Origin: Clostridia bacterium
GTDB taxonomy: Bacteria; Bacillota; Clostridia; Oscillospirales; CAG-272
Direction of reading: 5' to 3'
Assembly (NCBI GenBank): GCA_017504605.1
Contig: JAFVQW010000049.1
Location: 1-44,533, forward strand
DNA: 44,533 nt
Shown: positions 15,378-18,363 of the stretch, one piece after another
Numbering within the stretch: the stretch's first letter is position 1
Layout of the letters: every line of letters begins with the position of its first letter
Made by a program: the position numbers and the translations under genes
Notes under the pieces: generated by a model
What the model saw: only the letters and a program-made list of their open reading frames with translations
Database searches by the model: none
Told to the model about the DNA's origin: nothing

Positions 15378-16052
15378 ATGAAAATTATCGCAAGAATTAA
15401 GAACGATTTTAAGGAAAAATTCGGAATTCCTCGTCAGAGCGGTATAGTTGAAAACACCGTCGGACGAATAGTCTTCGAGCCTGAGTACAGAAATCCCGAT
15501 GCACTGCGCGGCATTGAGGGCTACTCGCACCTTTGGCTTATCTGGCAGTTTTCCGAGGCCGTGCGTGAGGAGTGGTCACCGACCGTGAGACCGCCAAGGC
15601 TCGGCGGTAACACTCGGGTCGGCGTTTTCGCGACACGCTCGCCCTTCAGACCCAACCCCATAGGGCTCTCCTCGGTAAGGCTCGTTGGTATCGAAAGAGA
15701 CGAAAAATGCGGCACGGTCCTCGTCGTCTCGGGCGCCGACCTCGCCGACGGAACGCCGATATACGATATTAAGCCCTATCTTCCCTTCACCGACTCGCAC
15801 CCGAACGCCACGGCGGGCTTTGCCGACGGGACGGCGGAATACGAGGCCGAGGTCTCCTTCCCTCCCGAGCTCCTTTCAAAAATCGAGCCCGAGCGGCGCG
15901 AGGTGATTTTGGCACTCCTACGCCACGACCCGCACCCCTCGTATAAGAACGACCCTGAGCGCGTGTACGGTATGGTGTACGCCGACTATGAGATTTTTTT
16001 CACTGCCTCGGACGGTAGGATAGAAGTAAAGGACATAAAAAAACAGAGATGA
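15378..16052 (+). CDS. trmO: tRNA (t6A37) N6-methyltransferase TrmO (TsaA/YaeB family)
   Basis: Methylates t6A at position 37 of threonine tRNA using SAM. 224 aa. The family signature GVFATRSPFRPNPIGLSSVR is complete, followed by GADLADGTPIYDIKPYLPF. A GGGGAAG ribosome site precedes the ATG. Odd point: the last codons (KKQR and the TGA) lie inside the left terminal inverted repeat of the hairpin element at 16037-16429, so the element may have supplied the present 3' end of the gene. Confidence 0.92.
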   Translation: MKIIARIKNDFKEKFGIPRQSGIVENTVGRIVFEPEYRNPDALRGIEGYSHLWLIWQFSEAVREEWSPTVRPPRLGGNTRVGVFATRSPFRPNPIGLSSVRLVGIERDEKCGTVLVVSGADLADGTPIYDIKPYLPFTDSHPNATAGFADGTAEYEAEVSFPPELLSKIEPERREVILALLRHDPHPSYKNDPERVYGMVYADYEIFFTASDGRIEVKDIKKQR

Positions 16053-16429
16053 GCGTATGGGTGAGGTTCTTAGCGGAAAATTTGTAGCTTTACAAAAGTG
16101 CAAGCATCGCATTTGACCGGTCAAATGCAAATATGAGCTAAGCCCAAACCCTTATAACGACAGAAAGAGATAACAAATCGGTTAGTAGCCGAAATGTTAT
16201 CTCTTTTTCTGTTAGTGAAGTTTTTGCTAACGCAAAAGTGAAGTTGCTATGCAGTGAAGTTTGTGCTACGCACAAGTGAAGTTAAGTTTGCCCTTAACTT
16301 CGCCGTTAGGCGAAACTTCACTCACGAAGTGAACTTCACTATCGAAGATAACTTCACTTGCCGGGAGGGCAAACTTAGTTATGCGTGTTCTCCGTTAAGG
16401 ATAACACGCATACTCATCTCTGTTTTTTT
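16037..16429. repeat. MITE-like multi-hairpin element with 17-bp terminal inverted repeats
   Basis: The ends 16037-16053 and 16413-16429 are perfect 17-bp inverted repeats (AAAAAAACAGAGATGAG and its complement). Inside are four arms. First, 16059-16155 holds a TTTGTA/TACAAA hairpin and the 20-bp palindrome at 16109-16128. Second, 16160-16214 is a long stem (ACAGAAAGAGATAACA with its near complement). Third, 16215-16357 is an array of four GTGAAGTT and three AACTTCAC. Fourth, 16380-16412 is a TATGCGTGTT/AACACGCATA hairpin. The spacers between the GTGAAGTT units are themselves tiny hairpins (TTTGCTAACGCAAA, TGTGCTACGCACA). No coding frame is evident. It fills the whole gap between convergent trmO and pgsA and could terminate both. 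Confidence 0.75.
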
Positions 16430-16430
16430 G

Positions 16431-17021
16431 TTACTTCGTCGTATCGATGTGCGGCATATACGCCTTCAGGTAGTCATATCCCGAGAAGAGCGTAGTAAAT
16501 ACCATAACCGCCATACATACATAGGAAAGAATGTGATTGTCCGAGAAGAAAGGAATGATAGGCTCGATGATGATTATAACCGTGCCGACCATCTGCGATA
16601 CGGTCTTCATTTTACCGAGCATGCTCGCCGCAACGACGATACCGCTCTTGCCCGCAACGACAAGGCGAATGCTCGTAACCGCAAGCTCACGGAAAAGGAT
16701 AACAAGCACGACCCAGACGAACACGAGTGCGAGGGTGCGCTCTCTGTCGAGGAGCATACGGACGAGTATGGCAATCATAGAGCCGATAACCATAAACTTG
16801 TCTGCGAGGGGGTCGATAAACTTACCGAAGTCGGTAACGAGGTTGTATTTTCTCGCAATCTTGCCGTCGAGCATATCGGTAAGACCCGTGATTATGTATA
16901 TAAGCGCGGGAATAATACAGCCCCATACTCCCGCGCCGCGCATAAAGAGTATCGAGAGAACGAAGGCGGGCACAAGTGCCACGCGGATAAGCGAGAGGGT
17001 GTTCGGAATATTAAGCTTCAT
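16431..17021 (-). CDS. pgsA: CDP-diacylglycerol-glycerol-3-phosphate 3-phosphatidyltransferase
   Basis: Makes phosphatidylglycerol phosphate at the membrane from CDP-diacylglycerol and glycerol-3-phosphate. 196 aa, several membrane helices. The CDP-alcohol phosphotransferase motif is complete (DMLDGKIARKYNLVTDFGKF followed by IDPLADK). AAAGGAA precedes the ATG by about 12 bases. Last gene of the DUF5685-dnaJ-membrane protein-rimO-pgsA run; rimO followed by pgsA is a common order in clostridia (family knowledge). It ends at the right arm of the hairpin element. Confidence 0.94.
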   Translation of the reverse strand: MKLNIPNTLSLIRVALVPAFVLSILFMRGAGVWGCIIPALIYIITGLTDMLDGKIARKYNLVTDFGKFIDPLADKFMVIGSMIAILVRMLLDRERTLALVFVWVVLVILFRELAVTSIRLVVAGKSGIVVAASMLGKMKTVSQMVGTVIIIIEPIIPFFSDNHILSYVCMAVMVFTTLFSGYDYLKAYMPHIDTTK

Positions 17022-17040
17022 TTTTTAAAAATTCCTTTCT

Positions 17041-18363
17041 TTATTGTGCTGTGCCGATAAGGTCAAAGTCGAGTGCCTCGTCAATACGGACGGTAACGAA
17101 CTCGCCAGGCGGGCAAGGCGTATCGCTGCGGAAGAAAATCTTGCCGTCGACGTCGGGTGCATCAGCGGCGCTTCTTCCGTAGTATATCTCCGCGACAGTG
17201 TCGAAGCCGTCGACAAGCACGGTAAGCTCAGAGCCTATTTTCTCGCGGCTCTTCTCCTCGGCTACGGTAAGCTGGGTCTGCATAAGTATATCGTATCTGT
17301 CCTGCTTCACCTGCCCGTCAATTTGGTCAGCCATATCGTACGCGGGGGTATCCTCCTCGGGCGAGAAGGTGAAGGCGCCGAAGCGGTCGAAGCGCGCCTC
17401 CTTGATAAACTCGCAAAGCTCGGCGAAGTCCTCCTCGGTCTCACCGGGGAAGCCGACCATAGCCGTCGTGCGAAGAGTTATTCCCTGCACCTCGCGCCGA
17501 AGCTTATTCACCGTCTCGCGTATCAGGGCGCCGTCGCCGTGACGGTTCATACGCGAAAGAACGCTGTCGGAAATGTGCTGAATCGGAATATCCATATATT
17601 TAACGAGGCGCGGATTGTCGCGAAGCTCGTCTATAAGCTCATTGGTTATCTTATCGGGATAGCAGTAAAGAAGGCGTATCCAGGGAATATCGGTCGCCGC
17701 GCATATTTCTCTGACGAGCTCGGCAAGAGCATATTTTCCGTATATATCAAGGCCGTAGCGTGTCGTATCCTGCGCTATAAGATTGATTTCACGAACGCCC
17801 TCGCGCTCGAGCTCTCTTGCCTCGTTTACTATATCCTCGATTTTCCTCGAGCGGAATTTACCGCGGATTAGGGGGATTGCACAGTAGCTGCATCTGTTGT
17901 CACAGCCCTCGGCAATCTTAAGATAGGCGGTGTGGGGGGCGGTCGTGAGCACTCTGCCGCCGCCGAGGGGCGAGGTGTTCTTATCACGGAAGGAGGAATA
18001 CCTCTCACCGGCCATAACAGCACGGCAGGCGTCGGCTATATCCGCGAGGCTACCCACGCCGAGCACGCCGTCGAGCTCGGGAAGCTCATCTAAGATTTCT
18101 TCGCGGTAGCGCTCGGCAAGACAGCCCGTCGCGATTATGTGACGGCACTTACCGCATTTTTTAAGCTCGGCCGCATCGAGTATATTTTCGATAGCCTCAC
18201 CCTTGGCACTCTCGATAAAGCCGCAGGTGTTGATTACTATAATCTCGGCCTCCTCGGGCTCGGGCGTGATTTCAAAGCCCTCTCGGACGAGGTTGTAAAG
18301 CATTACCTCGGTGTCAACCAGGTTCTTAGAGCAGCCGAGGGAGATAAAGGAAACCTTTGTCAT
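17041..18363 (-). CDS. rimO: Ribosomal protein uS12 methylthiotransferase RimO
   Basis: Radical-SAM enzyme that adds a methylthio group to an aspartate of ribosomal protein S12. 440 aa. It has the N-terminal MTTase domain with its cluster cysteines (SLGCSKNLVDTE, NTCGFIESAK, ATGCLAERY), the radical-SAM motif CDNRCSYCAIPLIRGKFRSR and a C-terminal TRAM domain. The IPLIRGKFRSR extension points to RimO rather than MiaB. GGAGG lies 5 bases before the ATG. It is 21 bases from the preceding membrane-protein gene and 19 bases from pgsA, so it is cotranscribed. Confidence 0.96.
   Translation of the reverse strand: MTKVSFISLGCSKNLVDTEVMLYNLVREGFEITPEPEEAEIIVINTCGFIESAKGEAIENILDAAELKKCGKCRHIIATGCLAERYREEILDELPELDGVLGVGSLADIADACRAVMAGERYSSFRDKNTSPLGGGRVLTTAPHTAYLKIAEGCDNRCSYCAIPLIRGKFRSRKIEDIVNEARELEREGVREINLIAQDTTRYGLDIYGKYALAELVREICAATDIPWIRLLYCYPDKITNELIDELRDNPRLVKYMDIPIQHISDSVLSRMNRHGDGALIRETVNKLRREVQGITLRTTAMVGFPGETEEDFAELCEFIKEARFDRFGAFTFSPEEDTPAYDMADQIDGQVKQDRYDILMQTQLTVAEEKSREKIGSELTVLVDGFDTVAEIYYGRSAADAPDVDGKIFFRSDTPCPPGEFVTVRIDEALDFDLIGTAQ

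Follow-up and report, generated by a model that had tools for sequence, protein, structure and literature searches.

The window, meaning the whole 44,533-nucleotide stretch of DNA analyzed here (contig JAFVQW010000049.1 of a Clostridia bacterium), carries trmO and a convergent gene, and between their stop codons sits a 393-nt feature bounded by inverted repeats. The repeats consist of two 17-nt arms that are 100% complementary and lie 359 nt apart (Table 1). They had been described as perfect in the original prediction, which also saw four hairpin arms in the interior, and both were found again, the interior arms being a palindrome, a hairpin, an array, and a right-end hairpin. What could not be upheld is the view of the 17-bp repeats as the termini of the element, with borders at 16037 and 16429. 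When copies are set side by side, the outermost repeats are specific to each site and match the partner arm at that same site, mostly in the arrangement of A-run and stem on one side and stem and T-run on the other. The borders therefore move inside the 17-nt arms, to 16058 and 16410, and the ends of the element proper are GTGATGTYCTTARCGGAG.

What, then, are the 17-bp repeats? They form both arms of a single terminator of the host and are not the ends of an element. The terminator has the layout A7-stem / stem-T7 with a predicted CGTA loop and is split by a 353-bp insertion that has TA at each junction. Leaving the insert out in silico restores a 17-bp stem, the CGTA loop, and T7 (-22.1 kcal/mol), with the characteristics of an intrinsic terminator. 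The feature is genuine, yet its repeats reveal the target rather than the element, and the same caution applies more widely, as inverted repeats flanking such insertions can be split terminators instead of terminal repeats.

This placement also bears on trmO, which was thought to receive its last codons and stop from the element and perhaps to have been remodeled by its insertion. The stop codon does lie within the left arm, but that arm is host DNA and not an element end, and the stop is 3 nt outside the core dinucleotide. In the element-free relatives L091 and L095, TrmO ends at about the same place (judged by eye). trmO was not remodeled.

The feature is predicted to fold strongly on both strands (-158.6 kcal/mol and z -12.0 on the plus strand, -157.1 kcal/mol and z -13.8 on the minus strand). 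Its array is built around the word GTGAAGTT, which occurs seven times in the window, always within the feature (four times forward and three times reversed), against 0.94 expected; seven or more were reached in none of 100 shuffles. The spacers separating the words fold as small hairpins, just as the first reading of the sequence had held. As for a group II intron, no intron family appears among the Rfam matches to an E value of 1 over positions 15400 to 17400, and the 353 bp contain no long open frame of their own.

Table 1. Features at the trmO-pgsA junction (window positions).
Feature	Position	Strand	Remarks
trmO CDS	15378..16052	+	stop codon TGA 16050-16052 in left terminator arm, outside element
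Left arm of split host terminator (A7 + CAGAGATGAG)	16037..16053		predicted terminator
Host loop bases CG + left core dinucleotide TA (16056-16057)	16054..16057
Inserted element proper, 353 bp	16058..16410
Left end motif GGGTGAGGTTCTTAGCGGAA	16059..16078	+	putative recombinase half-site
Perfect palindrome GCATTTGACCGGTCAAATGC	16109..16128
Internal terminator-like hairpin (ACAGAAAGAGA..TCTTTTTCTGT)	16160..16212		stems in other copies vary with compensation
Array of GTGAAGTT words	16215..16377		forward 16215, 16238, 16254, 16276; reversed 16314, 16332, 16350; hairpin spacers between words
Array: closing stem	16283-16294 / 16366-16377
Gut-1 RNA-like stretch	16310..16381	-	40 bits, below threshold of 50
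Right end motif GCGTGTTATCCTTAACGGAG (minus-strand reading)	16390..16409	-	putative half-site within right-end hairpin 16380-16412
Right core dinucleotide TA	16411..16412
Right arm of split host terminator (CTCATCTCTG + T7)	16413..16429
Convergent gene, named pgsA in the original prediction	16431..17021	-	stop codon adjoins right arm

Copies of the element and their target sites

The genome from which the window comes (G000; 1.74 Mb in 59 contigs, 83% complete) was searched with the 393-bp feature, a copy-number search that the original prediction had asked for. It returned 59 matching pieces at an E value of 10 or less, some of which are palindromic self-matches of one copy, and they include eight complete copies with both ends (L001 to L006, L008, and L014) plus fragments. 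All eight are flanked by complementary arms. Matches at an E value of 1e-5 or better were present in 21 of 40 genomes searched, the own genome included: 19 of 25 genus members (own genome again counted) and 2 of 15 genomes from other families of the order. An unusual, dispersed repeat-within-repeat element had been suspected and is what was found; it is neither a single copy nor an ordinary terminator conserved in all relatives.

For a wider view, a script collected 57 element pairs, duplicates removed, in 164 loci (L001 to L084 and L115 to L194) from many Clostridia genomes; L195 to L230 were left out of the pair finding, and one doubtful pair, L061, stays in all counts. Across the 57 copies, the two arms match each other at 10.56 of 12 positions, compared with 8.65 when partners are swapped, and the re-joined flanks fold at -19.33 versus -8.97 kcal/mol for swapped ones. 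For 45 of the 57, the re-joined fold lies below the 5th percentile of the control, and for 28 it lies below the 1st. The other 12 are poor terminators and include three of the six copies large enough to carry genes (L124, L148, and L158). Adenine peaks at positions -12 to -20 on both sides. One base outside the end motif sits a core dinucleotide. The two ends carry the same one, directly repeated, in 53 of the 57 copies (AA or TT, depending on orientation, in 36, TA in 9, AT in 7, and GT in 1), against about 15 expected by chance from the marginal counts. The four discordant cores are GT/AT (twice), TA/CA, and TA/TT. Equal dinucleotides would also result if some other enzyme duplicated 2 bp.

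That last possibility is the heart of a very unlikely alternative, in which the element is a classical MITE with 17-bp terminal inverted repeats and a 2-bp target duplication, moved by a DDE transposase, and the resemblance to a terminator is accidental. The element is indeed small, noncoding, and dispersed, with inverted ends and equal border dinucleotides. A MITE should also have conserved terminal inverted repeats, however, and here the 17-bp repeats differ at each copy; the ends that are conserved lie inside them and also border serine recombinase genes (described below), and most of the 57 copies sit in a terminator.

Do uninterrupted versions of the target sites exist? Five re-joined sites were searched for in 69 genomes of the genus. 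The empty site predicted for copy L014 occurs unbroken in congeners, with a single TA, within a dispersed terminator-like hairpin; 29 to 35 nt match at 100% across the junction at 7 places in 5 genomes, besides less exact ones, and the center is unbroken in all nine stretches fetched for this site (L335 to L343). These empty sites are related rather than orthologous. The hairpin in question, CTCCCTTTACACAAGGGAG, recurs in many congeners and is the landing site of L014. For copy L003, an orthologous site in G013 (L334) lacks the element and has an ordinary terminator-like hairpin between the neighboring genes, which match at 73% over 141 bp on the left and at 86% over 125 bp on the right (a putative triose-phosphate isomerase). 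The trmO-pgsA gap itself, which the original prediction wished to see compared among relatives, was rejected as an aligned empty site. Aside from the own genome, trmO is present in 51 of 69 congeners at 55 to 71% identity; among the 30 loci read, only L095 keeps the order serC-trmO-pgsA, and it does have a plain terminator without the element, but the gap could not be aligned. Re-joined flanks, run by BLAST against 303 loci, gave one weak span, L182 on L200, which on reading by hand is a similar terminator beside an array and not a proven empty site. The borders, copy number, terminator context, common 2-bp core, and an exact unoccupied site are established.

The gene context is that of a small mobile element in a position that does the least harm to genes. 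Open frames of 80 codons or more end within 80 bp on both sides of the element at 26 of 51 sites, so that gene ends face it from both directions, on one side at 19, and on neither at 6. At 225 random points, the corresponding counts were 0, 26, and 199. Two loci show smaller structures. In L155 (1690-1760), the loop of a terminator holds just one short end hairpin, which may be a minimal or solo element, and in L015 (1790-1900), tandem GGGAAGACCCTC repeats adjoin a decayed element copy.

Hairpin bodies, repeat words, and Gut-1 RNA

The 50 short copies have their ends and an internal hairpin in common but differ in the repeat word of the array, which is uniform within a copy. At least eight words, classed by eye, are in use: GTGAAGTT, GTGATGTT, ATGAAATC, TCGATATG, GCGATAT, ATGAATTG, GTTATGA, and AGTGATATT. 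The commonest 7-mer occurs three to seven times per copy, compared with at most three to five times in 30 mononucleotide shuffles; in L169 and L189 its count does not exceed that of the shuffles. In copies of the GTGAAGTT class, the word runs forward throughout the first half of the array and in reverse throughout the second, which allows each forward word to pair with each of the reversed ones. A structure alignment of 16 of the 20 copies of this class (L004, L006, L008, and L079 were left out) gave a common fold in which 9 of 101 pairs have changed on both sides, modest support for a common structure. Unit number varies between copies of the class, as in L058. Single copies (L058 and L157) have additional array units or stretches that are duplicated, which suggests that arrays expand and contract by whole units. 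Word-plus-hairpin arrays also lie by terminators without any end motifs in L016 (1430-1490; AATGATG) and L200 (1-420, minus strand; GTGAAAT), so such arrays may be able to spread, or to persist, by themselves.

One family in Rfam has the same build. "Gut-1 RNA" (RF01706) is an array of this kind with the word GUGAAAU, and its gathering threshold is passed inside L067 and L174 (2 of 18 sources), while the window's own array scores below it (Table 1). Weak Rfam matches to mir-4856 and RsaD were taken as chance. Gut-1 was reported, in the part of the source available, as a noncoding RNA known only from samples of the human gut (PMC2864571). The two are alike in repeat word and hairpin spacers; the difference is that a free noncoding RNA is described there (again from partial text, PMC2864571), whereas here it forms one module inside a larger mobile element. 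An orphan Rfam RNA thereby gains a genomic home.

Could the feature instead be a conserved host RNA, or an elaborate Gut-1-like terminator of trmO and pgsA, that does not move at all? The strong folding, the pairs changed on both sides, and the Gut-1 matches would all be in keeping with this, but it is made highly improbable by the occurrence of many copies per genome at different sites, by the empty sites, and by sharp borders with a common core. In L095, moreover, these two genes are found with a plain terminator.

End motifs beside serine recombinase genes

A scan of 84,980 species' genomes for the end motif found at least 116 stretches, against an estimated 30 or so chance matches (18-base pattern, two two-fold positions, 257 billion bases). 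Those listed, 80 in number, come mostly from MAGs titled Clostridia or Oscillospiraceae, many of them from ruminant guts. L178 encodes a 553-aa large serine recombinase, with the motif 54 bp past its stop codon. The protein has Resolvase, Recombinase, Zn_ribbon_recom, and DUF4368 domains, and its nearest solved structure is TnpX (E value 3.9e-38). Among 295 genomes of the order, 153 contain relatives of it at an E value of 1e-60. Altogether, 36 recombinase loci were examined, 30 reached by protein match and 6 through the motif itself. Thirteen of them are at least 60% identical to the L178 recombinase over the matched part, and in 11 of these the motif (with up to four mismatches) lies 51 to 54 bp past the stop; in the remaining two, L249 and L251, a diverged form of the motif occupies that position. 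Since 6 of the 13 had come via the motif itself, the figure for close loci found by protein alone is five of seven. The more distant loci number 23, and a single one of them shows the motif, with four mismatches and 67 bp past the stop. All but one (L257) of the 11 motif-bearing loci have a T-run after the end. Several distant serine recombinases (L279, L281, L290, L292, and L297) have other conserved sequences after their stops, some of them followed by T-runs.

A complete element of this kind is present in G164 (L366, C4, 140-5110). It is about 4.9 kb long, has both ends, and lies inside a single terminator with arms AACAAAACACAGTCTGC and its complement (17 of 17 matching), so that recombinase gene, end motif, and terminator target co-occur. 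Its recombinase frame matches residues 81 to 535, without the N-terminal part of about the first 80 residues, and may be dead. A pyruvate kinase gene and a gene for a YitT-like membrane protein are also carried by this element. A second candidate for a complete recombinase element, L139, was rejected by hand, its two ends having no common core. It is likewise established that the ends are common to recombinase genes and that one element bearing a recombinase gene sits within a terminator.

How well does the window element fit as a substrate of such an enzyme? Its ends match, and its core is identical on the two sides (TA, as in 53 of 57 copies), but the host recombinase is missing: no match to the L178 type was found in G000, an assembly that is 83% complete. 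Among 69 congeners, 13 have matches, none above 51% identity, and the distant recombinases of these 13 genomes have other sequences after their stops. In 310 plasmid records, all recombinases are below 60% identity, phage records gave no match, and a scan of IMG/VR gave six matches. The window element would then have been moved in trans by another element that is absent now or missing from the assembly; possibly the recombinase was lost after the spread. The same absence, from G000 and, for a close relative, from all 69 congeners, is what gives substance to another reading. In that reading, the small element is mobile and targets terminators but is moved by some other enzyme, and the serine recombinase elements have in common with it only the target and an end that is convergent or borrowed. 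It is judged unlikely, as the small elements and the recombinase elements have the 18-base motif at an equal position, and in equal register, with respect to core and arm. Some of the array words (GTGAAGTT, GTGATGTT, and GTGATATT) resemble GTGATGTT, with which the end motif begins, and might serve as extra recombinase contacts.

The same ends are also found around other genes. Six longer pairs of 848 to 1366 bp (L116, 1702-2625; L124, 5546-6807; L148, 6012-6859; L158, 720-2060; L161, 6003-7125; and L187, 5446-6811) have genes between their ends and resemble gene cassettes. Those read (L161 was left out) have a TATAAT-like box close to the left hairpin and, ahead of the other end, a hairpin that resembles a terminator. 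The frames named by profile are DUF559 and GNAT in L158 and DUF4299 in L187. The longer elements that were read hold genes other than a DDE transposase. L124 has a RAYT-like frame between its ends, at 66.5 bits against a cutoff of 80.

Hairpins in inverted pairs, together with that RAYT-like frame, are what one might expect of a REPIN-like element moved by a RAYT (Y1) enzyme. This is scarcely probable, though, as Y1_Tnp is absent from G000 and occurs in 14 of the 69 congeners, whereas the element is present in 19 of 25 genus members; a RAYT is disfavored as the driver in G000 on this count. The element borders are also formed by a 2-bp core in a terminator loop, and REP elements are not known to have such borders.

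Proposed mechanism and related systems

The explanation considered probable, with good though not full confidence, is that a 353-bp nonautonomous element was integrated into the loop of the trmO-pgsA terminator in trans by a TnpX/TndX-like large serine recombinase of the DUF4368 type. That a TnpX-like enzyme moves the window element is inferred from the shared ends and core. The proposed steps are as follows. (i) The inverted end motifs would be the two half-sites of the recombinase site. (ii) The target would be a palindromic terminator (A-run, stem, loop, stem, and T-run). (iii) Crossover would take place at the 2-bp core, here TA, in the loop. (iv) The hairpin-packed body would let the split arms still meet, in RNA or in extruded DNA, and predicted folds do pair the arms 359 nt apart. 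(v) The element would also bring its own terminator-like hairpin. The last two properties would, it is proposed, make the insertion nearly harmless, and the terminator might go on functioning.

A broader proposition, for which the chances are put at even, is that a clade of TnpX-like large serine recombinases targets terminator hairpins by their symmetry and not their sequence, that a cassette economy of hairpin arrays and gene cassettes is moved in trans, that the published relaxed, A/T-flanked targets are partly terminators, and that Gut-1 is a passenger module. At least one branch of a multi-targeting clade that is under development for genome engineering, and has been described as loosely specific, would have a concrete insertion rule, namely, the loop of an intrinsic terminator with a 2-bp core.

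How does this compare with known systems? MITEs, BOX elements, and REPINs are short, modular, hairpin-forming intergenic repeats; they have other ends and other mobilizing enzymes and no known terminator-loop target. IS1630 of Mycoplasma fermentans targets inverted repeats derived from terminators by means of an IS30-type transposase. It duplicates the whole inverted repeat, whereas here one arm stays on each side. In the literature searched, which included few subscription papers, no serine recombinase that inserts in terminator loops or targets terminators was found, and no serine-recombinase MITEs are described. Multi-targeting recombinases form a clade rich in DUF4368, according to the available portions of three papers, the main texts of which do not contain the word "terminator" (PMC5704250, PMC10083194, and PMC13137831). 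Tn4451 is described, in the text at hand, as having 2-bp cores and low specificity (PMC5704250). The likeness to Tn4451/TndX-like elements and DUF4368 recombinases consists of the recombinase architecture, TnpX as the nearest protein in the PDB, the 2-bp core, the many targets, and the A/T-enriched target ends reported, in the available text, for some multi-targeting recombinases (PMC5704250, PMC10083194, and PMC13137831). These elements, however, carry their recombinase, whereas the window element is 353 bp without genes, and the targets given in the same partial texts are of low or relaxed specificity (PMC5704250, PMC10083194, and PMC13137831), whereas here the target is a terminator hairpin. 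Group IIC introns resemble the present element in using terminators as landing sites; as far as the accessible text goes, intrinsic terminators are safe sites for them, which they enter via an RNA intermediate just after the terminator (PMC8919778), whereas here it is the loop that is invaded, at a 2-bp core.
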